A DNA stretch of 64,000 nt. It comes from Bacillus sp. FSL K6-3431 (GTDB taxonomy: Bacteria > Bacillota > Bacilli > Bacillales > Bacillaceae_C). The position numbers were made by a program, and so were the translations under genes. This document shows, one piece after another, positions 17,215 through 50,287 of the stretch (within the stretch, counting starts at the first letter, position 1; every line of letters starts with the position of its first letter). The notes beneath the pieces were generated by a model, which worked only from the letters and a program-made list of their open reading frames with translations, was not told where the DNA came from and did no database searches. The stretch covers positions 1,426,001 through 1,490,000 of the forward strand of contig NZ_JBBOCT010000001.1 of assembly GCF_038002605.1 (NCBI RefSeq). Reading direction: 5' to 3'.

Positions 17215-17287
17215 GATTCCGTAGCTCAGCTGGGAGAGCGCCACCTTGACAGGGTGGAGGTCATGGGTTCGAGCCCCTTCGGAATCA
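17215..17287 (+). tRNA. tRNA-Val (anticodon GAC)
   Basis: 73 nt with acceptor stem GATTCCG/CGGAATC, D-stem GCTC/GAGC, anticodon stem CCACC/GGTGG with loop TTGACAG, T-loop TTCGAGC and discriminator A; CCA is not encoded. The T-stem ATGGG/CCCTT has a T50-T64 mismatch. The gene abuts the prophage integrase, so its 3' part is the likely attachment site (attL). Confidence 0.95.
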
Positions 17288-17333: not shown

Positions 17334-17429
17334 ATTTCCGTTGACATAGGCGGAGACTTAGCGCAGGGTGGCGGTTCTATTACGTACAAGGTGGCGGTCG
17401 TTGTCGTTGACATATTCGAAGGGATGATA

Positions 17430-18479
17430 ATGTTGACGGACAAACGTAAGGGTAAACGAGTTAAGACAGCGCGGGTAAATGTGCGGAAAACCTCCGTGAA
17501 GCTGGACGAACTATACGAACGGTTCATCGAAATAAAGAAGGCGGAGGGTCGTGCGCAAAGTACGTTAGGACAGTACGAAGAAAACTACGGTTATTTTATC
17601 GAGTATCTACGTAAATACGATATACCCAAGGAAATTAACGCAATAACGAAAGATACTATTCGAGAGTATATCGTCTATATGCGCGACACACTTGTTAAAT
17701 TCGAGGAACATCGCTTTAAGAATGACGACGCAAAGACTACGGGGCTTGCGCCAAGTACGATAAATACTCGGTTAAAAACGCTGAGGGTCATATTTAAGTG
17801 TTTGGAGGAAGAAGAACACATTAAGTTAAATCCGATGCACGGAGTAAAGAATGTTACGGAGTTAGAAGAAGATATATGCGTACTAGATTCGGAGGAATTG
17901 AAGAATCTTTTAGCCGTTCCCAATAAACGCAGCTATGCGGATTTTAGGGATTTCGTCTTAATGAACTTTCTGTTAGACTGTATGACGAGAATTAGCGAGG
18001 CTATAAATCTAAAAATAAGCGATTTCGATTTGTCTTCGCAGTTAGTAACGATACCGGCGTCAATCGCTAAAAATCGTAAATTTAGAATCCTTCCGTTAAC
18101 TCGATCTACTGCGAGGTTAATCGGGGATTTAATTCGAGATAACGAAGCCGATTTCGATAGTGAGTACGTATTTTTAACGAATTACGGAGAAAGAATCTCT
18201 CGTGACCACTTTCGTAAACGTCTGAATACTTTTGCGGAACAAGCGAAAATAACTAAAAACGTACATCCGCATTTATTCCGTCACACATCAGCGACAATGT
18301 TTTTAGAAAACGGAGGAGATATCCGTCATTTGCAGAAGCTGTTAGGGCACGCTGACTTACGTATGGTAGTTCGTTACACACACCTTTCCGGCACAGCCCT
18401 AGCAAAACAACATGCGCAATATTCCGGTATGAATCAAGTTTTAGGTAATTTAAACAAGAAACGTAAAATTAAACGCTAA
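17430..18479 (+). CDS. int: tyrosine recombinase / phage integrase
   Basis: 349 residues from the ATG at 17430, five bases after GAAGGGA; an in-frame GTG at 17391 has no ribosome binding site. Residues about 20-135 form the SAM-like core-binding domain; about 150-330 form the catalytic domain with Arg187 (MTRISEA), Lys214, HLFRH (His281, Arg284), LLGHAD (His307) and nucleophile Tyr316 (VVRYTH). A basic tail KKRKIKR ends it. It would integrate and excise the prophage at the adjacent tRNA-Val. It is transcribed toward the FtsK cassette and ends at a bidirectional terminator. Confidence 0.95.
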   Translation: MLTDKRKGKRVKTARVNVRKTSVKLDELYERFIEIKKAEGRAQSTLGQYEENYGYFIEYLRKYDIPKEINAITKDTIREYIVYMRDTLVKFEEHRFKNDDAKTTGLAPSTINTRLKTLRVIFKCLEEEEHIKLNPMHGVKNVTELEEDICVLDSEELKNLLAVPNKRSYADFRDFVLMNFLLDCMTRISEAINLKISDFDLSSQLVTIPASIAKNRKFRILPLTRSTARLIGDLIRDNEADFDSEYVFLTNYGERISRDHFRKRLNTFAEQAKITKNVHPHLFRHTSATMFLENGGDIRHLQKLLGHADLRMVVRYTHLSGTALAKQHAQYSGMNQVLGNLNKKRKIKR

Positions 18480-21250: not shown

Positions 21251-22105
21251 TTATTTAATAATAGCGCCGGTACCTTTGCCAACGTAAATGTTCCGCTTGC
21301 CTCGCGAAGTATTAATCGTAACCACATCCGCGTAAGGCTTGCCGATTATTTCGTAAGTTAAGCCGCCGAATGCGCTAGGCGTCAGCGACCAGTCGGAGTT
21401 CTTCGTGACTGGCTGAACGGACAACTTGTACGTACGCCACGTCTTTGCAGATGCCGGTAAATGAACCATTCCTTTAGGTTGTACGGACGTTGCGCCGCCT
21501 TTTACCTTCGCCAATAACGTGATATTCTGCGATGCCGTTCCGCTGTAGTTTTTAATGCCGTGCTGTGCTGCTAGTTTAGCGCGATTAGTGAACGTTGAGG
21601 AAATACCCTTTGCGTTAAGATAATCGACAATGCTTCCTCCGCCAGTTACCGGCTTGCTCACTGATGGCGGACTGTACGCCTTTAAATACACAGTCGGGTC
21701 GAGACAGTTACCCGCGCGATTGGCTTCCCATCCGTAGCTCGGCGCACATGTCTTACGTACTTCGAAGTGTAAATGCGAGCCAGTCGATTGTCCCGTCGTA
21801 CCTTGGTAACCTACGACTTGCCCTTTCGAAATACGCGCTCCTGACTTAACGGCAACACTGTCGAGGTGAGCGTATACTTGCGCCCGCCCGTTTTTGTCTT
21901 TGACGACGACTACGTTACCATAACCGCCTAATCCCGTGCCTGCATTGCCGAAGCCTGCGTAAAGTACAGAACCTTCGGTAAATGCATTGATTGGCGCCTT
22001 GTGCGTCTTTACTACGTCAATTCCCGTGTGAAACTCTTGCGCGCCTCCGAACGGGCTTTTGCGCCAACCAAACGGCGATGTAACTCGATATCCTGTAAAC
22101 GGCAA
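21251..22105 (-). CDS. M23 peptidase endolysin
   Basis: 284 residues. The N-terminal half (about 1-145) is a lysostaphin-like M23 zinc endopeptidase: HTGID supplies His26 and Asp30, YAHLD carries His80, and SHLHFEV carries His111 and His113. The C-terminal part (about 165-284) is an unrecognised wall-binding-like region with an SPOR- or SH3-like composition. It has no signal peptide, so the holin would release it to cut peptidoglycan cross-links. It follows holin and XhlA genes in the lysis module; gaps are 1-13 bases. Confidence 0.9.
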   Translation of the reverse strand: MPFTGYRVTSPFGWRKSPFGGAQEFHTGIDVVKTHKAPINAFTEGSVLYAGFGNAGTGLGGYGNVVVVKDKNGRAQVYAHLDSVAVKSGARISKGQVVGYQGTTGQSTGSHLHFEVRKTCAPSYGWEANRAGNCLDPTVYLKAYSPPSVSKPVTGGGSIVDYLNAKGISSTFTNRAKLAAQHGIKNYSGTASQNITLLAKVKGGATSVQPKGMVHLPASAKTWRTYKLSVQPVTKNSDWSLTPSAFGGLTYEIIGKPYADVVTINTSRGKRNIYVGKGTGAIIK

Positions 22106-31495: not shown

Positions 31496-32329
31496 TTAAA
31501 TGTATTTGTCGCGGTATTTCACCGTTAGATCGAAGTTTAACCCGCCACCACCAACTACTACGTTGTTATCTCCGTTAATTAGCTCGATAAAGTCGCCCGT
31601 CATTGCCGCTAAGTCGAGCGTTCCATTCCGCTTAACCGTAAAATCAGCACCGTCGATTTCCCACCGTGTATTTGTAAACGCCGGCAAACTAAACGACTTT
31701 CCATTCGCGCTAATCGTTAACGCCTTCGCACTTCCGTCGATTACGAAAATCGGACGTAAAGCATCGCCGTGTAAATTAACGTTAAGCGCTCGTGGCGCTG
31801 TAACTTTAATACCACCGAAAGCTTCCGTTCCTAGTAGATAATTAAACTCAAACGTAATAACCTCGCTGCCCCACAATATTTCGTCTGCCGTTACCGTTGA
31901 ATAAGCGTAAGGATCAAACGCCGTAAGCCCTAACGTAAAAAAGCCACGCTCGGCAACGCGGTCAATCGAGATTCCTTCCGTTATGCGTGCGTTATAATAC
32001 TTATCTACCTCGTCGCCGAAACGTAATTGCACCGTCTTAGGGCGTCCATATTGGTCGACAAAAAGACGATTAAGGGCGCGTATCTGTCGTTTTAGGTCGT
32101 CGTAAGGCTGCCGTTTGAATACGCAGTTAAGCGCAAATTCCCTCGGCTCAAAGTAAGCCCCGAAGTCATAAGCGCCGTGTCTGCCGGGCACCGTTACGCC
32201 CATGTTCCGCATAGAGGGCAACGCCGGTTCCTCCGAATTAAGAAGTACCGCGACGTTAAAGTCCTTCTGCAATAGCGTGTCGTCGATCCATACGCGCGAT
32301 TCGACTGCGCCTTCCGTAAAAATAGTCAT
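31496..32329 (-). CDS. dit: distal tail protein (Dit)
   Basis: 277 residues. It reads as a siphovirus Dit: N-terminal beta-sandwich (VWIDDTLLQKDFN, VTVPGRHGAYDFG, ALNCVFKRQPYDDLKRQIRAL) and C-terminal galectin-like domain (about 150-277). Dit forms the hexameric hub joining tail tube to tip. It starts four bases inside the end of the tape-measure gene, as is usual. Confidence 0.9.
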   Translation of the reverse strand: MTIFTEGAVESRVWIDDTLLQKDFNVAVLLNSEEPALPSMRNMGVTVPGRHGAYDFGAYFEPREFALNCVFKRQPYDDLKRQIRALNRLFVDQYGRPKTVQLRFGDEVDKYYNARITEGISIDRVAERGFFTLGLTAFDPYAYSTVTADEILWGSEVITFEFNYLLGTEAFGGIKVTAPRALNVNLHGDALRPIFVIDGSAKALTISANGKSFSLPAFTNTRWEIDGADFTVKRNGTLDLAAMTGDFIELINGDNNVVVGGGGLNFDLTVKYRDKYI

Positions 32330-35088: not shown

Positions 35089-35356
35089 CACACTGTTATC
35101 GTAAAGGCTTTTTAACCTCTACTTCTTATAGTTTCCTATAAGGTCGGCATACATTTTTACCCTCAACTTTACTTGCTAGGGTAACGGATACTCGTGGGGG
35201 AATTATAGTCTGCATTGCAGGATCATCCCCTATGCTCTACGGTGCCAAAGACTTTTTAATTCCTTTGGTTACCTCGGTATTGGCATTTGACAGCTTTCAC
35301 CGATTTTACCCGTTATTTTAAGCTGCTTGTTTCCAAACAACTGGGCAGTTATGTTT
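35089..35356 (-). ncRNA. group I intron-like element in tape-measure gene
   Basis: 268 nt with no internal reading frame. Exon 1 ends in U (35357) and the element ends in G (35089), as group I introns require. Exon GGGU pairs with internal GCCC plus G giving the conserved U-G pair at the 5' site (P1). The next four bases upstream in the guide, AACU, pair with exon 2 GGUU (P10). UGCC/GGCA and CCAAAG/CUUUGG fit P4-P5, UUACCC/GGGUAA fits P8, and CUUAUAG-GAAA-CUAUAAG just before AGAAG fits P9. I could not assign P3 and P7 fully. Removal restores the frame exactly. Confidence 0.82.
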
Positions 35357-36025: not shown

Positions 36026-36437
36026 TTAGTTCCTCCTTTCCGCTAAAGTTCGCAAATTGCGCCAACCATTCCGTAGCGTTCTCTGCCTTTTCCTGTAAAT
36101 CAACCGACTTAGATTTCGCAACGCCTTCGTCAATTGGTCGCTTAAACAAGTCGCTCGGCTTTAATCGTTTAGCGTGATAAGCCTGACGCATCATAAATGC
36201 TTCGTGAGTCATGCGTTCATATTCGTCATGTTTGCGTTCTGTTTGGGCGCGCATCATTATCGTAAACTCGCGCGGGGTTAACGATAATACCTTTTCTGCA
36301 CTAAGTCCTAAATAACGCCAACCGTCGAAAATAGCTTGTTCTACTTCGCATAAACCTTCGATTATTTCAATAAGTTGTCCAGCGCCGCCTTCGCTTCCGG
36401 AGTGTCCGCCATCATCTTCGTTACCGCGGCTTTGTAG
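36018..36437 (-). CDS. tail assembly chaperone, frameshift (T) domain
   Basis: 139 codons read only after a -1 shift at 36437-36443; the fusion has 236 residues. No start codon with a ribosome binding site exists: the first ATG pair (36257) is mid-domain. The segment LIEIIEGLCEVEQAIFDGWRYLGLSAEKVLSLTPREF is a typical T-domain start. The fusion presumably binds tape measure and tail-tube protein during tail assembly, as lambda gpGT does. Confidence 0.8.
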   Translation of the reverse strand, partial: LQSRGNEDDGGHSGSEGGAGQLIEIIEGLCEVEQAIFDGWRYLGLSAEKVLSLTPREFTIMMRAQTERKHDEYERMTHEAFMMRQAYHAKRLKPSDLFKRPIDEGVAKSKSVDLQEKAENATEWLAQFANFSGKEELND

Positions 36438-36727
36438 AAAAAATTATCCGTCACCACTTCGTTTGATAGACGTAAAAGCCCTAATAGGTCAAGTCGTTCT
36501 TCTTCGACCGCTTGTTCGATCGCCGATTCTATGTCTTTAAGTTTGTATTCTTCGCCTGTGTGGCGGAGTGCTGCGGAAATGATATGTGGAATTAAATCCT
36601 CATCGCCCTGCATCGCCTGTCCTACGACTGCCAAAGCACCACCGTCTACTTTTTTATTTAAGTATTTAATGCCCGCATAATTAAGTTTAAGTTCGTGTTC
36701 TTTTCCTTTAATTTCAAAAGTCGCCAT
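36362..36727 (-). CDS. tail assembly chaperone (G protein)
   Basis: 121 residues. It begins MATFEIKGKEHELKLNYAGIKYLNKKV, the Phage_TAC pattern found after tail-tube genes. Helical acidic sequence follows to ALDNLLK. Its gene contains the slippery heptamer at codons 95-97, so most ribosomes make this short form and some make the fusion. It lies between the tail tube and tape measure genes. Confidence 0.88.
   Translation of the reverse strand: MATFEIKGKEHELKLNYAGIKYLNKKVDGGALAVVGQAMQGDEDLIPHIISAALRHTGEEYKLKDIESAIEQAVEEERLDLLGLLRLSNEVVTDNFFYKAAVTKMMADTPEAKAALDNLLK
36437..36443 (-). promoter_or_regulatory. programmed -1 frameshift site T TTT TTC
   Basis: The heptamer TTTTTTC is in exact X-XXY-YYZ phase with the short chaperone frame (AAT TTT TTC). 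The -1 frame has a stop codon immediately upstream (in GAT AAT) and then stays open to 36018, so the site lies within the only permitted window. Confidence 0.8.
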
Positions 36728-36791: not shown

Positions 36792-37259
36792 TTAAGGTAT
36801 TTCTGGTTCTGATTGCGACCCTTCTAACGGAGCGCCATCTGGTACTACTGTTAGAATTTCTTCCGTTATACCGCCATTTAGAGTTCCATCAAGCGTGTAC
36901 GTAGCAAAGTCTCCGTTGCTGTACTCGCGATCAAACGTTGATATCATGTAAAAACCGGATTCTGCTGCTTTGGTACGCGTGTTAATTTCGTAAATCTTGA
37001 CGAATTGCTTTCCGCGAATTGCCGCTTTAATATGATCGATAAATTCGTCGCCTTCCGTAATAATGCCCTCTAAGGATACCGATTGAGTAATTTTTCCGTA
37101 ATCACTGCCCGTTTTATCTTTCGTATCAAGTTCGATTTCGTCCGCACTTAAAGACGTACTTCCGCCTGTTTGGTTAAATGGACGGATTAGTTTTTCTCCT
37201 ACTTCATCCGTAATTTCCACCGCAAAAAGTATCTCTTCCCCGCGATATTCAATAGCCAT
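36792..37259 (-). CDS. major tail (tube) protein
   Basis: 155 residues, beta-rich, of the TP901-1 major tail protein type: TSLSADEIELDTKDKTGSDYGK near residue 35, SLEGIITEGDEFI, and AAESGFYMISTFDREYSNGDF. Its position between head-tail joining genes and the tail chaperone fits. It would polymerise into the tail tube. Confidence 0.9.
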   Translation of the reverse strand: MAIEYRGEEILFAVEITDEVGEKLIRPFNQTGGSTSLSADEIELDTKDKTGSDYGKITQSVSLEGIITEGDEFIDHIKAAIRGKQFVKIYEINTRTKAAESGFYMISTFDREYSNGDFATYTLDGTLNGGITEEILTVVPDGAPLEGSQSEPEIP

Positions 37260-39713: not shown

Positions 39714-39932
39714 CTATTCGTTTTTCTTCGTTTTCGTAACCTTCGCCTTTGCAGTCGGCTTTTTCGGCGCTGACTCCTTTTTCACCGGTGCAGGCTTCGG
39801 CTTTTCTTTCAATATGCGCACGTAGCCGTTAGCTTCGAGAGCCTTCGCGCTACTTGCGTCAATTTCGATAGTCGAGCCGGGCGCGTTACCGTCGACAACT
39901 GCGCCTGTGACTTCGACTTTTACTTTCGCCAT
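39714..39932 (-). CDS. small lysine-rich protein after the capsid gene
   Basis: 72 residues, ATG overlapping the capsid stop codon. The N-terminal half is a small beta fold (VEVTGAVVDGNAPGSTIEID, SSAKALEANGYVRIL), like the short connector-associated proteins of many phages. The tail is Lys/Pro/Ala-rich. Function is unknown. Confidence 0.75.
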   Translation of the reverse strand: MAKVKVEVTGAVVDGNAPGSTIEIDASSAKALEANGYVRILKEKPKPAPVKKESAPKKPTAKAKVTKTKKNE

Positions 39933-40957
39933 TATACAGTGAATACGTCAGCGTGCAATAATAGGCTAGGCGCTTCAACAATCGGGAATCCTGCCGCAGC
40001 TACACGTAGAATCGATTGAATCGGCTCTTTCTTGTCGTAAGCGTCAAGTACGATACCCGGTGCGAAGTTGTTTTCGACTGTCGGACCATATACGAAATTA
40101 CCTAGTCCTTCCGAAACGAATACAACACGATTTACCGGGAAGAATTCGATTACTTCGTCTTCGCCCGTATAGTTATTTTTTGCCGTGATCTTACGATTAG
40201 TAATGATTTGTACAGGCGGTAATCCGTATCCTCCAAGCACCGAATTAAGCTCGTCGACAGATACGCGTCCCGTTCCGCTTTGCGATCCGCGCGCTTCGTT
40301 AACAATCGTCGTGTTTTTAAGTAACAACGCTTGTGCTTCGCGTGTGATTAAAATAACGTCGGCTTGTTTTCCGTTAGCATCAACGTATTTATCGTTCCAG
40401 TTAAGCAAGTCTCCGATAACGTCACGATTTACGTCAGCCCAATCGTTGCCAGCCGTAAGTGCGATCTTTTGGTCGGAAGGGATTCCGTAATCAACAACGA
40501 TTTTTACGCCGTTCTTGTTATACGTAAAGTTACCTTTCGCGATTGCTTCGACTTTAGCTACGTCTACACGGCGTTGTGTAGCTTTTACCAAGTCCGCGCC
40601 TTTAACGAGTAACTTTTCAACCATCGCTGACTTCTCGCCTGCTGAACGTGCTTGATGTAAGGAAAGAAGTTCTTCTTCTGTAGCGATATATTTAAGTCCC
40701 ATTTTCGCAAGTTCGCCAGCTTTGCTTGCTACTGCGTCACGGTCGATTACTGGTGGCTCTGCGCCGTATCCGATCATTGCCGCGATGTGGTTAGATTTCT
40801 TGATGATGTCATATGCGAAAGTAGTCGAATAAATCGAATCGTTCGGCATAAAACGGTCACCGAAAGAAGGTGCGTCCAGTTGCTCTTTTTCCAATGCGTC
40901 TACCAATCCGCGAAGTGCGGGCTTAGAAAATTCAGTAAGGTACGTAATTCCACTCAT
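39932..40957 (-). CDS. major capsid protein (protein E-type)
   Basis: 341 residues, ATG behind AGGAGGAATTTTAAT. It shows the lambda E-like family pattern: LGDRFMPNDSIYSTTFAYDII-type N-terminus, EPPVIDRDAVASKAGELAKMGLKYIATEEE near residue 68 and NNFAPGIVLDAYDKKEPIQSILRVAAAGFP at the C-terminus. It forms the HK97-fold shell with the scaffold and decoration proteins encoded just upstream. Confidence 0.9.
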   Translation of the reverse strand: MSGITYLTEFSKPALRGLVDALEKEQLDAPSFGDRFMPNDSIYSTTFAYDIIKKSNHIAAMIGYGAEPPVIDRDAVASKAGELAKMGLKYIATEEELLSLHQARSAGEKSAMVEKLLVKGADLVKATQRRVDVAKVEAIAKGNFTYNKNGVKIVVDYGIPSDQKIALTAGNDWADVNRDVIGDLLNWNDKYVDANGKQADVILITREAQALLLKNTTIVNEARGSQSGTGRVSVDELNSVLGGYGLPPVQIITNRKITAKNNYTGEDEVIEFFPVNRVVFVSEGLGNFVYGPTVENNFAPGIVLDAYDKKEPIQSILRVAAAGFPIVEAPSLLLHADVFTV

Positions 40958-41004: not shown

Positions 41005-41745
41005 TCAGTCAAAGCAGTTATAAACGTGAGCCTCATACTCTTCGGGGCTAAGTCCATTTAACTCCGCTAAATAAAAAACGACGGATTCAAACCTCTTGAG
41101 GTCGATGTCCCCGCGTTCTTTAACCCATTCAAATGGATTTTTAGCACCTTTAGACAAATTCAGTGTTTTATCTAGTGGGATTAAATTACTAACTATGGTA
41201 TCTCCATAACCAGTTTTAACAGGTATGAAATGATCCATATGAATGTTAAGTGAGTCTGTGATAGGACATCTGTACTTAAATCTCTCTAAAATCTGTGCGC
41301 GTTGTTCATTAGTTAATTCGATAATACTTCCTCGTTCGCGTGATTTTCTTTGAAATCTATGGAACTTAAAAATATCTTTATTAGCTAAATAGTATTCGCG
41401 AGATTTTATTGATATTTTTTCAGCGTTATTATGATGATATTTTCGCCCGTATAACTTCTTTTTCTCACGGTTATTAAAGTAGTTTTCCTGCATTTGTTTT
41501 AATATCTTATCTCTATTATTCCGGTAGTAAGTCTTACCTATATTCTTATAGTACTCTGGCTTTTTAGCTTCGGACGCTCTCTTACTAGCAGCGACTTTAA
41601 CTGGATTTTTAGTGCGGTAATCCTTCGCCTGTGATCTAGTGCAGTCTTTACATTTGGATCCATAATAAACAGACCCTTTGTAACTTCCCGCTTTATAGAA
41701 CTCACTTACTTCTTTTTCGTTACCACATTCCTTACATACCTTCAA
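41005..41745 (-). CDS. free-standing HNH homing endonuclease
   Basis: About 246 residues from a TTG at 41745, with AGAGGA nine bases upstream. An N-terminal zinc knuckle (CKECGNEK and CKDC) is followed by a long basic helical stretch with repeated Tyr/Asn/Arg and a C-terminal HNH nuclease (CPITDSLNIHMDHFIPV, SNLIPLDKTLN). It lies between the decoration and capsid genes, is AT-rich relative to them and has no structural role, so it is probably a mobile gene that cuts intronless or endonuclease-free relatives near this site. Confidence 0.85.
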   Translation of the reverse strand: MKVCKECGNEKEVSEFYKAGSYKGSVYYGSKCKDCTRSQAKDYRTKNPVKVAASKRASEAKKPEYYKNIGKTYYRNNRDKILKQMQENYFNNREKKKLYGRKYHHNNAEKISIKSREYYLANKDIFKFHRFQRKSRERGSIIELTNEQRAQILERFKYRCPITDSLNIHMDHFIPVKTGYGDTIVSNLIPLDKTLNLSKGAKNPFEWVKERGDIDLKRFESVVFYLAELNGLSPEEYEAHVYNCFD

Positions 41746-41805
41746 AAAGACACGTCCTCTCATTCGGTATTAAGAAAAAGACACTGACGTTTTCTCGTCA
41801 ATGCC

Positions 41806-42836: not shown

Positions 42837-43025
42837 CTATGCTCCTCCGCCTTCTAAGGCGTCAAGTCTTGCGATAGTTGCGTCGTACTGTGCTTTCGTT
42901 CCGAATCCCGCTGCGCCGGTGTCGCCTTTCAAACCCTGCGATCCTTGTGCGCCAGTATCACCTTTTTCGCCTTTCGGACCGACTGGTCCCTTCGCACCTT
43001 TATTGCTATACATCGGAGTTGCCAT
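42837..43025 (-). CDS. collagen-like head fibre protein
   Basis: 62 residues, ATG behind GGGGAGGTGTTAGACG, overlapping the portal gene end. Ten or so Gly-X-Y triplets (about 9-42) are followed by a short helical end (QYDATIARLDALEGGG). Bacillus phage head-fibre proteins have this plan: a trimerising tail and a collagen-like stalk. Its place between portal and scaffold genes supports a capsid-surface role. Confidence 0.75.
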   Translation of the reverse strand: MATPMYSNKGAKGPVGPKGEKGDTGAQGSQGLKGDTGAAGFGTKAQYDATIARLDALEGGGA

Positions 43026-44601
43026 CGTCTAACACCTCCCCGTAAGGATCGCCTTCGCTACGTCGTTTTGCGCGCTCGCTTTCGATTTCTTGACGTTTCG
43101 ATTGCACGTTTTCAACGCCTAGACGTTCCATTGCGCCACGAACCGACTCAAAGCCTGCGCCAGTTTCAAACGTTAATAACTCAACGAGTTCTTTGCGATT
43201 GTCCGGTAATGGCAATATAAAGCGCATTTCATTTTCGTAATTATCCCCAATTTTATCGACCACTGAACGGTCATACGCGAAGTTAGGCGCTTTTGTTCTC
43301 GCCTGCATGTATCGGATAGTCTTTTCGTGTAATTCCGCTAAGTTATAGCCCCATGAAAGCCAATGTTCCTCAGTGTCCGTGATAATATCGTGATAAAGCA
43401 CTTGTAACGCCTCGCCGTTGAGTCCGCCGAAATTAAGCTCTTGCGGAACTACTTGCGGTAACCCGGAAATCTCGTGCATAGCCGCCTTAACGCGCATGTA
43501 CTGATCTTGGAACGCGTCTTTCCAACGGAATCCACCTTCGACTTTCTTAATGTCCGGTGATAATCCGTCCGAATGTCCGCGAGCCTCTACGACTGCACCC
43601 GGCGCGACAACCATCTTAGCTGCCGTTCCCTCCGGCGCATTTAATACGGCCGTCATCGAGAACATTTCGAATTTAAGCGAGTCGATTGCGTCCTCGTTCA
43701 TCTGATTAAGTACGTCGTTTTGTTCGCGTAAGTCGCTAATCTCGGATTCTCCGATTGATTCCGCCAAAAGCTCATTGACTGGAAATACTACGATTGGTAT
43801 AAAGTCGAGTCCCATCGGCGCTTTCTCCGTAATTGTCGCGAGTAACTTTAAGTCGGATTCGCGGTATACCGCTTCTTCAAACGTACATACGCCGTCTTCA
43901 AGTCGATATGTTTGCTTACGTATCGCATCTACTTCCGCGCCTTTTACAACCCACTTGCGCTTATTTACGAAATGTGCTCCGATTAAGTCTTCGAAATCAT
44001 CGTCGGAATAAATCGGGATAAATTCGCTGTCAGGTCGCCAAATCCATCGCATCTTGCCCGTCCGCTGATTAAATACGATCTTACATACGACTCTATCGGC
44101 TATCAAACGATCCCTTGCCGCCTGTATTAAGCGAGCGCGCATTTTGTTTTCGTCCCATAAACGGTAAAGCAAGCGTTCGTAATCTTCGGCGCGCTTGTTT
44201 TCAGCTTCCTGCGCTGCACTAGGTGTATATGCGTCAGACTGCGCCGCCTTAACGTCATCAATCTGCTTACGTGGTACGCTGATGCCGTGCGTGCCGCCCA
44301 TTTGCCATCGTGCTTTTCGGTCGACGATTGCTTTAAAGTAATTCGTAGCATAACGTGTTGGGTCGTAATCTAAGCCGTCCGGCCGAGGTAAATCCGCTGC
44401 TTTGACGAGTGCGCCCGTTTCAGGGTCTTCGTGCTGCTTGCCTTCGTAATAATCGTAGTTTTCGAGTTGTCGCTGTATGCGTGCGTACGTTTCTGCTCCG
44501 AGTGCTTGTCGGAAGGGAGCGAATAAAAGATCGTTCATTTCCTGCGGCGCTAGTAAATTATAGTCCGCCATGTTGCGTGTGAATTTCGTTAATATCGACA
44601 A
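43006..44601 (-). CDS. portal protein (SPP1 gp6 type)
   Basis: 531 residues, TTG start behind GGAGGTGAAACA. Family patterns include YATNYFKAIVDRKARWQMGG near residue 90, NELLAESIGESEISDLREQNDVLNQMNEDAID in the middle and SGLPQVVPQELNFGGLNGEALQVLY near residue 375. It forms the dodecameric DNA channel at the capsid vertex. It follows the large terminase gene directly. Confidence 0.92.
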   Translation of the reverse strand: MSILTKFTRNMADYNLLAPQEMNDLLFAPFRQALGAETYARIQRQLENYDYYEGKQHEDPETGALVKAADLPRPDGLDYDPTRYATNYFKAIVDRKARWQMGGTHGISVPRKQIDDVKAAQSDAYTPSAAQEAENKRAEDYERLLYRLWDENKMRARLIQAARDRLIADRVVCKIVFNQRTGKMRWIWRPDSEFIPIYSDDDFEDLIGAHFVNKRKWVVKGAEVDAIRKQTYRLEDGVCTFEEAVYRESDLKLLATITEKAPMGLDFIPIVVFPVNELLAESIGESEISDLREQNDVLNQMNEDAIDSLKFEMFSMTAVLNAPEGTAAKMVVAPGAVVEARGHSDGLSPDIKKVEGGFRWKDAFQDQYMRVKAAMHEISGLPQVVPQELNFGGLNGEALQVLYHDIITDTEEHWLSWGYNLAELHEKTIRYMQARTKAPNFAYDRSVVDKIGDNYENEMRFILPLPDNRKELVELLTFETGAGFESVRGAMERLGVENVQSKRQEIESERAKRRSEGDPYGEVLDDGNSDV

Positions 44602-44620: not shown

Positions 44621-46390
44621 TTACCATCGGTTCATGCGTCTGACCGTCTGTACGACCGCCGTGTTATCTGCAACAGCGCTAACCGCCATTTCGAGTGCAT
44701 CAGGCAAATCGTCATGCGAACCTCCCGATCCGTACTGTTCGAATTGCTCGTTTAGTAACGTGTGTATGCGATTGAATTGAATCGTTTTGTTTTCAATCGA
44801 GGGTAATAACGCCTCTATACGCAACTCTTTACGTGAGCGCTGATATATCTTTTTAACGCGCGTGCCTGCCGGATAGCCTACCTTTTCTAGCGCCTTTTTA
44901 AGCTCGTCAACGAAAAACTCCTGCGCCGCCTGTGATTCCACTGCAATAACTGTCGGCTGATATTCGAGTACTTTTTTGACGACTACTTTAAGAAATGCGT
45001 CGGGTTTTATCCGGTCGCCATAAGCTTCGAGTACATAAATAGCGCCAGTCATACGCTCTTTCGCCACAACAACAATTGCTGAAAAGTCACCGCGCTGCTT
45101 ACCCATTGCAAAATCTACGCCCATAGCTACCTCATAATTACCATTTAGAAAGTCTATTTCACCGTCGTAATACTTGAAGTTTTCAGGATTAAATAACATA
45201 TTTTCTTCGTCGATGGGATTATTCATATACTCCGTATTAAATGCGAGACTTCCGTTATCCCATTTCCACGTCATCAGCTTCCATATAGGCTGCACTTCCG
45301 GCCATAGGACTTTTACGCCTTCGAGCATTTCTGATCTATTATTCTCGTAGAAGGTTCGAGCATCTTCCGCCCTCGATGGGTTATCTCGGTCGATATAAAT
45401 AAGCCGACAAGCTTCCCATATATCGAGGTGCTTCGGCTGCCCTATAATTGCACGATATATTTTAGACTGAAAGTCTGATCGTTTATGCAGCAAATTCATT
45501 AAAAGCGATTCGCGATGAACTGTAGTTCCAACGACCACAAACGCTGTACGTTCGCCCTTCGGGTCGCCGAGAGGCATTACTGTCTGCGCGAACCACGATA
45601 GTAGCTTTGTCCGCTGTTCCGGCGTACTTGCGTTTCCTCCCGATCTAGCATCTTCGAGATCATCGCATATAATTAAATCAGGTCGAGATCCATTCCAGTT
45701 TCGCCCACGTAGCGCTTGCCCCGTTGATACTGCTTGAACCAATGTTAACTGCCTTTTACCGCTGTCAACGTCCGCGTGCCACGCTATGAACGCGACGCTG
45801 TTGTCGGTTATATTCGACTGATCTTTCGGCGAGAGTAAAGGTCCGAAATCCTCTCGTAATTTATGATTGAATTTTAACTGATTTCGTATCCACTCCATAT
45901 TGGCTGTAGCGACGTCTGGCGTTTCGGATATAATAATTATATACTTACGCAATCTGTATACGACTTGATGAATCGGAAAGTCCTTAGTGAACCATGTCGA
46001 CTTTGCGTGCGAACGTGGCGCGGCTACCGCTATCTTGGCGTTAGTATTAACCGCAGAAACATCATCGATAATATCCGTCATTTCTATATGAAAGTCCGGC
46101 GCGCTCCTTTTGTCGATTACGTCGAATCCTTCCCAATTTCCACCATTTCCGGGGTTTCTTGCTTCCGTAAAGTATTCGAGGGCGAACTCGTAAGCGTCAT
46201 TTTCGCAACGGTCAATTCGCTCTAAACGCTGTAATTCCGTTGCCTTTTCGAAATAGTCGGTCAAAATATCCGCCGGCATATCGTCAGTTGACGGGTATTG
46301 GGCGTCTAGCATGTCGATGTACTGGCGATACGTTGCGATGATTTCCTTGCGTTCCTTACCGGCGACCCATGCTCCGTTTAACCACGCGAT
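44621..46390 (-). CDS. terL: terminase large subunit, apparent ATC start
   Basis: About 589 residues. The first ATG (46312) has no ribosome binding site, while the frame continues upstream to an ATC at 46390, eight bases after AGGAGG; no ATG, GTG or TTG lies between. The added 26 residues (AWLNGAWVAGKERKEIIATY) look coding. The ATPase has a Walker-A-like APRSHAKST near 124 and Walker B DLIICDD near 243; the RNase H-like nuclease has MGVDFAMGKQRGDFSAI and GGSHDDLPDAL. It packages DNA into the procapsid. Confidence 0.9.
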   Translation of the reverse strand: MAWLNGAWVAGKERKEIIATYRQYIDMLDAQYPSTDDMPADILTDYFEKATELQRLERIDRCENDAYEFALEYFTEARNPGNGGNWEGFDVIDKRSAPDFHIEMTDIIDDVSAVNTNAKIAVAAPRSHAKSTWFTKDFPIHQVVYRLRKYIIIISETPDVATANMEWIRNQLKFNHKLREDFGPLLSPKDQSNITDNSVAFIAWHADVDSGKRQLTLVQAVSTGQALRGRNWNGSRPDLIICDDLEDARSGGNASTPEQRTKLLSWFAQTVMPLGDPKGERTAFVVVGTTVHRESLLMNLLHKRSDFQSKIYRAIIGQPKHLDIWEACRLIYIDRDNPSRAEDARTFYENNRSEMLEGVKVLWPEVQPIWKLMTWKWDNGSLAFNTEYMNNPIDEENMLFNPENFKYYDGEIDFLNGNYEVAMGVDFAMGKQRGDFSAIVVVAKERMTGAIYVLEAYGDRIKPDAFLKVVVKKVLEYQPTVIAVESQAAQEFFVDELKKALEKVGYPAGTRVKKIYQRSRKELRIEALLPSIENKTIQFNRIHTLLNEQFEQYGSGGSHDDLPDALEMAVSAVADNTAVVQTVRRMNRW

Positions 46391-50081: not shown

Positions 50082-50287
50082 GATATCGTCTCCATTTCGT
50101 TTATAATATCCGCCGTCCTCGTGAGTCAGCGGAGTTATTGCGATAATGGCTTTCGCCAATCTTACGTATCTGGCGGATTTCTCCGCTAATTAAGGTAATT
50201 CCGCAGGCGTGTCGGCACTCACGCATCTCCAACTAGGGTGACGGCTGCCTGTTCCGTCCTCTGCGGCTGAATTCCGTTTAGGACTTT

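Follow-up and report, generated by a model that had tools for sequence, protein, structure and literature searches.

A predicted group I intron of a lineage recurrent in phage tape measure genes divides the tape measure gene of a Bacillus prophage

Introns that interrupt the structural genes of bacteriophages are already documented in the literature. The tape measure transcript of Vibrio phage ICP1 is described as comprising four exons and three introns, with splicing demonstrated by RNA-seq and RT-PCR (PMC10448857), and group I introns have been reported in the capsid gene of LittleE and the minor tail gene of BAKA, both Cluster J mycobacteriophages (PMC3706429). A 2025 paper describes as still mysterious an apparent bias of the group I introns of phages towards genes of nucleotide synthesis and DNA metabolism (PMC12350094). 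In this study, we describe a tape measure gene of a prophage in Bacillus sp. FSL K6-3431, whose two halves are separated by a spacer of 268 nt. The gene lies in the window, by which we mean the whole stretch of 64,000 nucleotides that was analysed. We place high confidence in an account in which this spacer forms a group I ribozyme that would splice the two halves into one and that most likely descended from a mobile intron whose endonuclease was lost.

The host genome comprises 5.5 Mb in two contigs; its genus is probably Lederbergia, since a protein of the chromosome has 86% identity to one from Lederbergia lenta and Lederbergia accounts for several of the named relatives that come next. The prophage appears, from its gene content, to be intact, with integrase, terminase, portal, capsid, tail and peptidase genes kept and the exons of the tape measure gene open (Table 1). 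An HNH/endonuclease VII-like gene (41005-41763; phrog_1035, 5.8e-17) stands among the capsid genes of the prophage and may possibly be a free-standing homing endonuclease. A match to the skipping-rope RNA (RF02924, 48.6 bits) was also found within the prophage, at 50199-50268.

Table 1. Features of the prophage, the divided tape measure gene, the modelled intron helices and related introns. Positions are those of the window unless another locus is named; intron scores refer to model R1 (see text).
Feature	Position	Strand	Remarks
Terminase	44621-46312		prophage late operon
Portal	43006-44601		prophage late operon
Major head	39932-40957		prophage late operon
Major tail	36792-37259		prophage late operon
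Tail chaperone	36362-36727		prophage late operon; tape measure follows
Tape measure exon 1	36025-35357	minus	223 codons, ends ...GAA GCG GGT; frame open
Predicted group I intron	35356-35089	minus	268 nt, final base G; no endonuclease gene
In-frame TAA	35320-35318	minus	intron codon 13; ends unspliced exon 1 reading
Tape measure exon 2	35088-32326	minus	920 codons + stop, starts GGT TCA GCC; frame open
Distal tail	31496-32329		prophage late operon
Peptidase	21251-22105		prophage late operon
Integrase	17391-18479		adjoins tRNA gene 17215-17287
P1	35360-35357 with 35346-35343	minus	exon GGGU, intron GCCC; U.G at splice site; read from sequence
P10	35350-35347 with 35088-35085	minus	intron AACU, exon 2 GGUU; read from sequence
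P2	35342-35334 with 35329-35321	minus	9 bp, GAAA loop
P3	35314-35308 with 35189-35183	minus	AACGGGU, AUCCGUU
P4	35303-35299 with 35278-35274	minus	UCGGU, ACCGA; encloses P5
P5	35295-35293 with 35284-35282	minus	one A-C mismatch in window copy
P6	35273-35271 with 35243-35241	minus
P6a	35268-35263 with 35250-35245	minus
P7	35237-35231 with 35151-35146	minus	G[A]GCAUA (A bulged), UAUGCC; presumed guanosine site
P7.1	35230-35226 with 35201-35197	minus	encloses P7.2
P7.2	35220-35217 with 35213-35210	minus
P8	35182-35178 with 35163-35159	minus
P9	35142-35136 with 35131-35125	minus	GAAA loop
P9.1	35122-35116 with 35107-35101	minus
Host nrdJ intron	L011:4660-4901; host chromosome C1 near 5417660-5417900		133.4 bits
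Same-site intron, Enterococcus phoeniculicola	L157		258 nt; EAG/GSA codon boundary
Same-site intron, E. dispar	L153		256 nt; EAG/GSA codon boundary
Same-site intron, metagenomic phage	L166 (IMG/VR contig 3300029822_000061)		1275 nt; EAG/GSA codon boundary
Other-site tape measure introns			Staphylococcus phages vB_SpsS-DH5, PG-2021_67; phage TPWB06
Other-site tape measure introns			Streptococcus phages MissB1, Javan355, phiJH1301-1
Tape measure site	EAG/GSA		window
Tape measure site	18 nt upstream		E. dispar
Tape measure site	before NNMAAQE		Staphylococcus-type phages
Tape measure site	before DLGI		Streptococcus phages
Tape measure site	near MYEDQG		IMG/VR group
Tape measure site	near residue 78 of homologue P0002		L226
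Tape measure exons by PHROGs (10)			L100, L053, L068, L070, L034, L084, L074, L072, L059, L060
Tape measure exons by own HMM (5)			L032, L087, L045, L098, L115 (via near-identical twin L080)
Tape measure exons on other basis			window (PHROG 13339); L042 (record annotation)

The initial annotation of this DNA had read the frames of 223 and 920 codons as parts of one tape measure, which a PHROGs profile search bears out, as exon 1 matches positions 43-245 of PHROG 13339 and exon 2 continues at positions 246-460. In Pfam, exon 1 matches PF10145 (E 1.9e-18), and no family was matched by exon 2 searched alone. The lengths of both exons are divisible by three. Exon 1 and exon 2 were aligned separately to 119 homologues (the best 120 of 827 protein-search matches, minus the window's own protein), of which 103 reach the junction from both sides, and in 102 of these usable homologues the last residue of exon 1 adjoins the first residue of exon 2 with a gap of 0; in the remaining one, 49 residues lie between the parts that match the exons. 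Sixteen homologues were unusable, and in the 12 of them that were printed the exon 2 alignment begins at residue 18-21, a late start that is the sole reason for exclusion in 11 of the 12. Comparison with unsplit tape measures, which had been named as a check, agrees with the claim that removal of the spacer restores the frame, and, judged from these alignments, the break in the tape measure gene is not a natural one. The ends of the spacer are also as had been described (it begins after a U and ends with G, on the minus strand), and the 268 nt contain no endonuclease frame.

P1 (GGGU/GCCC with a U-G pair) and P10 (GGUU/AACU) are present on the minus strand as first drawn, and P3 and P7, which the first drawing had not fully assigned, have now both been placed with support from changes on both sides of their pairs; in our model, P7.1/P7.2, P8, P9 and P9.1 are added to that structure. 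Helices P3 to P9.1 were drawn by eye from the window copy and scored on six cleanly aligned sequences, a small alignment in which two of the six are nearly identical. All six pairs counted in P3 are formed in every sequence, with both-side changes in three of them. The six pairs of P7 are likewise formed in 6/6 sequences, with both-side changes in two: the pair adjacent to the bulge is G-C in four sequences and A-U in two, and an inner A-U becomes G-C in two. Both-side changes were further counted in 7/9 pairs of P6 and P6a, 4/5 of P7.1, 3/5 of P8, 2/7 of P9 and 5/7 of P9.1; P7.2 is weaker (88.9% of cells paired), and P4 is invariant across the six sequences and therefore uninformative on covariation. 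The A-C mismatch of P5 was also read by eye in the intron of the host nrdJ gene. The guanosine site of group I introns is P7 with a bulged base, and P7.1/P7.2 helices are of the subgroup IA type. The window intron has extra helices between the 5' strand of P7 and the 3' strand of P3, a subgroup IA feature, and it combines compensatory changes in the core helices P3, P6, P7 and P8 with the U.G pair in P1 and the terminal G that characterize group I introns.

Across the 57 named pairs (333 cells), standard pairs make up 98.2% of cells vs 80.4% in shuffles, both-side changes occur in 32 pairs vs 13.7, and the covariation score is 0.568 vs 0.212, with none of 500 shuffles attaining any of the five measures. 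Pairing falls to 34.6-45.3% when the partner columns are slid by 1-3, and control (b) of this covariation test is biased towards the structure, since its helices were taken by eye from the window copy. A 311-nt stretch that includes the intron folds at -102.3 kcal/mol (shuffle mean -70.4, z = -6.28), which was equalled by 0 of 100 shuffles. RNAalifold, applied to eight held-out sequences, recovered P3, P4, P6, P7.1, P8, P9 and P9.1; P7 is absent from that fold because P7 and P3 together need a pseudoknot. The P7 of the Rfam alignment (AGACUA) was discarded, the window having no UAGUC partner for it while GAGCAUA/UAUGCC covaries, and a two-sequence alignment with the nrdJ intron was mis-registered and kept out of the structure work.

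The Rfam group I model, another check proposed at the outset, was borne out in part: RF00028 matches the intron over its full length (E 3.7e-7 in a search of 551 bases), at a score of only 34.6 bits, so that its gathering score of 50 is not reached in the window. The gathering score is a detection threshold and no defining feature. When the host genome was searched with RF00028 under stricter filters, the window intron went unreported. Two lineage models were used, R1, which includes the window copy, and R2, which consists of eight relatives without it. R2 scores the window copy at 235.5 bits (E 6.1e-64) with no broken pair flagged, and this score and the covarying helices uphold the original reading of a group I intron that splits the tape measure gene; R1 gives 257.8 bits to the same copy, which is part of that model, and at E up to 0.1 it matches this intron alone in the window. 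In the family, R1 finds 11 matches, all of them in genomes to which RF00028 was applied as well. Six overlap a match of RF00028 that passes its cut-off; the other five, four nrdJ copies and the window copy, were unreported under the stricter filters, so RF00028 overlooks part of the lineage and not all of it. Since part of the lineage is missed, tape measures annotated as two genes may hide introns that a lineage model would reveal. One lineage member above the RF00028 cut-off lies in a flagellin gene from the same genus (L003:148-1900), which has two RF00028 matches (70.6 and 98.5 bits), and only the first of these scores highly with R1. In the host chromosome, an RF00028 match of 34.6 bits near C1 2064655-2064938 (L012:4656-4939, minus strand) overlaps the 3' end of a tmRNA match and is possibly an intron inside or beside a tmRNA gene; ARAGORN found no tmRNA gene at this locus, and with only 15.6 bits in R1 the match was rejected as a lineage member.

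Introns at the same codon boundary of the tape measure gene are present in two Enterococcus species and in a metagenomic phage (Table 1). A scan of genome contigs for the junction pattern gave 21 stretches, with an R1 intron in the two Enterococcus ones only, and two more IMG/VR contigs appear to repeat the Enterococcus cases. The Enterococcus introns share 75.8% and 76.9% identity with the window copy, and AACUGCCC is identical in all three same-site relatives, the search pattern having demanded it. In E. dispar, the tape measure gene has a second intron 18 nt upstream, which leaves an 18-nt exon, VEAEAG (L153:6510-7038, L087:1722-2250). The metagenomic intron (L166) encodes a GIY-YIG + NUMOD3 gene between the 5' and 3' strands of P4; over the first 58 nt this intron has 98.3% identity to the window intron, and over a later stretch of 207 nt only 74.9%. 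The last 69 nt of the window intron are 95.7% identical to an intron of a Clostridioides phage, whose downstream peptide resembles ribonucleotide reductase by eye, and this likeness may reflect general conservation of P9/P9.1 or some mosaicism. The homing endonuclease that marks mobile group I introns is encoded in L166 and absent from the window copy. Because L166 occupies the same site and holds a GIY-YIG gene, the window copy would seem to descend from a homing intron and to have lost the endonuclease, although homing, the order of events and the direction of gene loss are what we infer from this comparison.

Beyond this site, BLAST with the intron against phages returned 60 records, and R1 matched 54 of the 299 genomes that were sampled from the order (E <= 1e-12) and 8 of 34 genomes of the family (E <= 1e-8), the window's own included in each case. 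The host itself has a second intron of this lineage: it is 242 nt long (boundaries by eye) and interrupts the nrdJ gene (class II ribonucleotide reductase) at the NPCGE motif, and nrdJ introns at a comparable position occur commonly elsewhere in the order. A first pattern scan of viral contigs gave 99 stretches, and R1 was run on the 80 listed. A set of 114 introns was composed of 91 of 105 R1 matches (14 below 50 bits were dropped), 17 of 29 others (one duplicate, one cut at the locus end and ten below 25 bits were dropped) and six loci found by BLAST (L029-L034). Our tape measure HMM matches the flank in 38 of these 114 introns, equal to 15 of 71 clusters at 90% identity; it is an imperfect HMM, with two hits unsupported by PHROGs (L111, L122) and five tape measures per PHROGs missed (L100, L053, L068, L070, L034). 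The other-site tape measures listed in Table 1 were identified from annotation, and the unannotated DH5 and PG-2021_67 by the same HMM.

Exclusion of 12 clusters without a downstream frame of 60 codons left 59, and tape measures, with 17 of these 59 non-redundant downstream exons, are the top host in a sample that was collected by likeness to a tape measure intron and could therefore favour this host. Late genes are thus not unusual hosts in this lineage, and the remark in the initial annotation on late structural genes as less usual hosts finds no support in it; introns in late genes have also been published. Forty of the 59 downstream frames were scanned singly and gave 10 tape measures, 3 terminases, 4 major head proteins, 1 NrdD, 1 DNA polymerase, 1 helicase, 6 endonuclease frames, 10 without a match at 1e-8 and 4 of unknown function, so that in 6 of the 59 the scanned frame is no host exon. 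Three further terminases are known from records (L038, L039, L044). Over all 59, 10 have the best-matched tape measure PHROG, 5 have terminase domains, and 4 plus 1 have ribonucleotide reductase domains. Among 34 loci from bacterial genomes, nrdJ is the host found most often (11 by the peptide EQPLAPYSVCNL). At least three have tape measure flanks, a minimum figure because some loci on the minus strand appear not to have been turned. In another genome of the order (L271), a lineage intron lies beside a downstream peptide that is recA-like by eye.

In the mechanism that we propose, the spacer would be a complete group I ribozyme with P7.1/P7.2, from a lineage mainly in Firmicutes and their phages. 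On transcription of the late operon, the intron would fold and bind guanosine at P7, the message would be cut after the U of GGGU, and exon 1 (...EAG) and exon 2 (GSA...) would be joined to give one tape measure of 1143 residues, with the stop at intron codon 13 barring ribosomes from the core. Self-excision of the element from its transcript is, in our judgement, very probable, and we infer both catalysis and splicing in cells. The ancestor was most likely a mobile intron that homed with a GIY-YIG endonuclease into the conserved Gly-Gly codon pair, and whose endonuclease gene would later have been lost.

Several other explanations were weighed against this one. A GTG at 35091 could serve as the start codon of exon 2, which is listed as an ORF of its own and stands as a separate entry in the protein database (P0001), so the locus might encode two separate tail proteins from adjacent genes with a merely intergenic spacer; we find this scarcely credible, however, as no ribosome-binding sequence is visible by eye before the GTG, the junction is exact in all but one of the usable homologues, and the spacer bears a conserved ribozyme fold. 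It is very unlikely that the element is a decayed group I intron that has lost splicing within a defective prophage: the missing endonuclease gene and the one mismatch in P5 would fit such decay, but all other named pairs form, the U.G and the terminal G are kept, P7 is intact, and the exons are open across 1143 codons.

A different account concerns why the intron is retained, namely that splicing times or throttles tape measure synthesis according to cell state, in place of neutral or selfish persistence. Same-site introns in four phages or prophages, including those of Enterococcus and of this Bacillales host, would be in keeping with such a role, as would the several intron sites within the gene. 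Homing, on the other hand, accounts for site conservation without any benefit, and most tape measure genes lack a lineage intron (one was found in 80 IMG/VR tape measure loci, a sample biased to unbroken genes), which leaves a regulatory role improbable. The reading that we prefer remains a self-splicing intron of mobile ancestry. For the lineage as a whole, we lean towards the view that the conserved tape measure core is a major homing target of one Firmicutes-phage group I lineage, entered independently at several codons and crossing genera, with a host preference reaching far beyond nucleotide metabolism and with part of the lineage hidden by the Rfam model. Set against the published preference for nucleotide and DNA-metabolism genes, the tape measure leads in our lineage sample.

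Since spliced tape measure introns of ICP1 have been published, the window intron joins a known kind and its novelty is modest; what it adds is the recurrence of the tape measure as a target and the partial under-detection of the lineage by Rfam. In the open-licence PMC papers, as far as they were consulted, we met no description of tape measure introns from this lineage, a negative that we put forward weakly. The closest relatives are the introns of the two Enterococcus species and the metagenomic phage, which have the gene, the codon boundary, the P1/P10 sequences and the lineage (R1) in common with the window, whereas the metagenomic copy differs by its GIY-YIG gene and E. dispar by its additional upstream intron. 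The introns of the Staphylococcus and Streptococcus phages and of TPWB06 belong to the same lineage by BLAST or R1 and also lie in tape measure genes, but at different codon positions, that of Javan355 with an annotated homing endonuclease. Like the window, ICP1 has a tape measure gene interrupted by intron sequence, which in ICP1 is known to be spliced; it differs in having three introns, of which the middle usually carries an HNH endonuclease gene (PMC10448857). ICP1 is moreover a lytic phage of a Gram-negative host, unlike the prophage in the window, and is likened to it by description, its intron class going unnamed in the section that describes the splicing (PMC10448857). The Cluster J phages, in turn, are temperate siphophages that share with the window the location of group I introns in late structural genes; theirs are spliced during late expression, although they lie in other genes and the capsid intron carries a putative endonuclease (PMC3706429).
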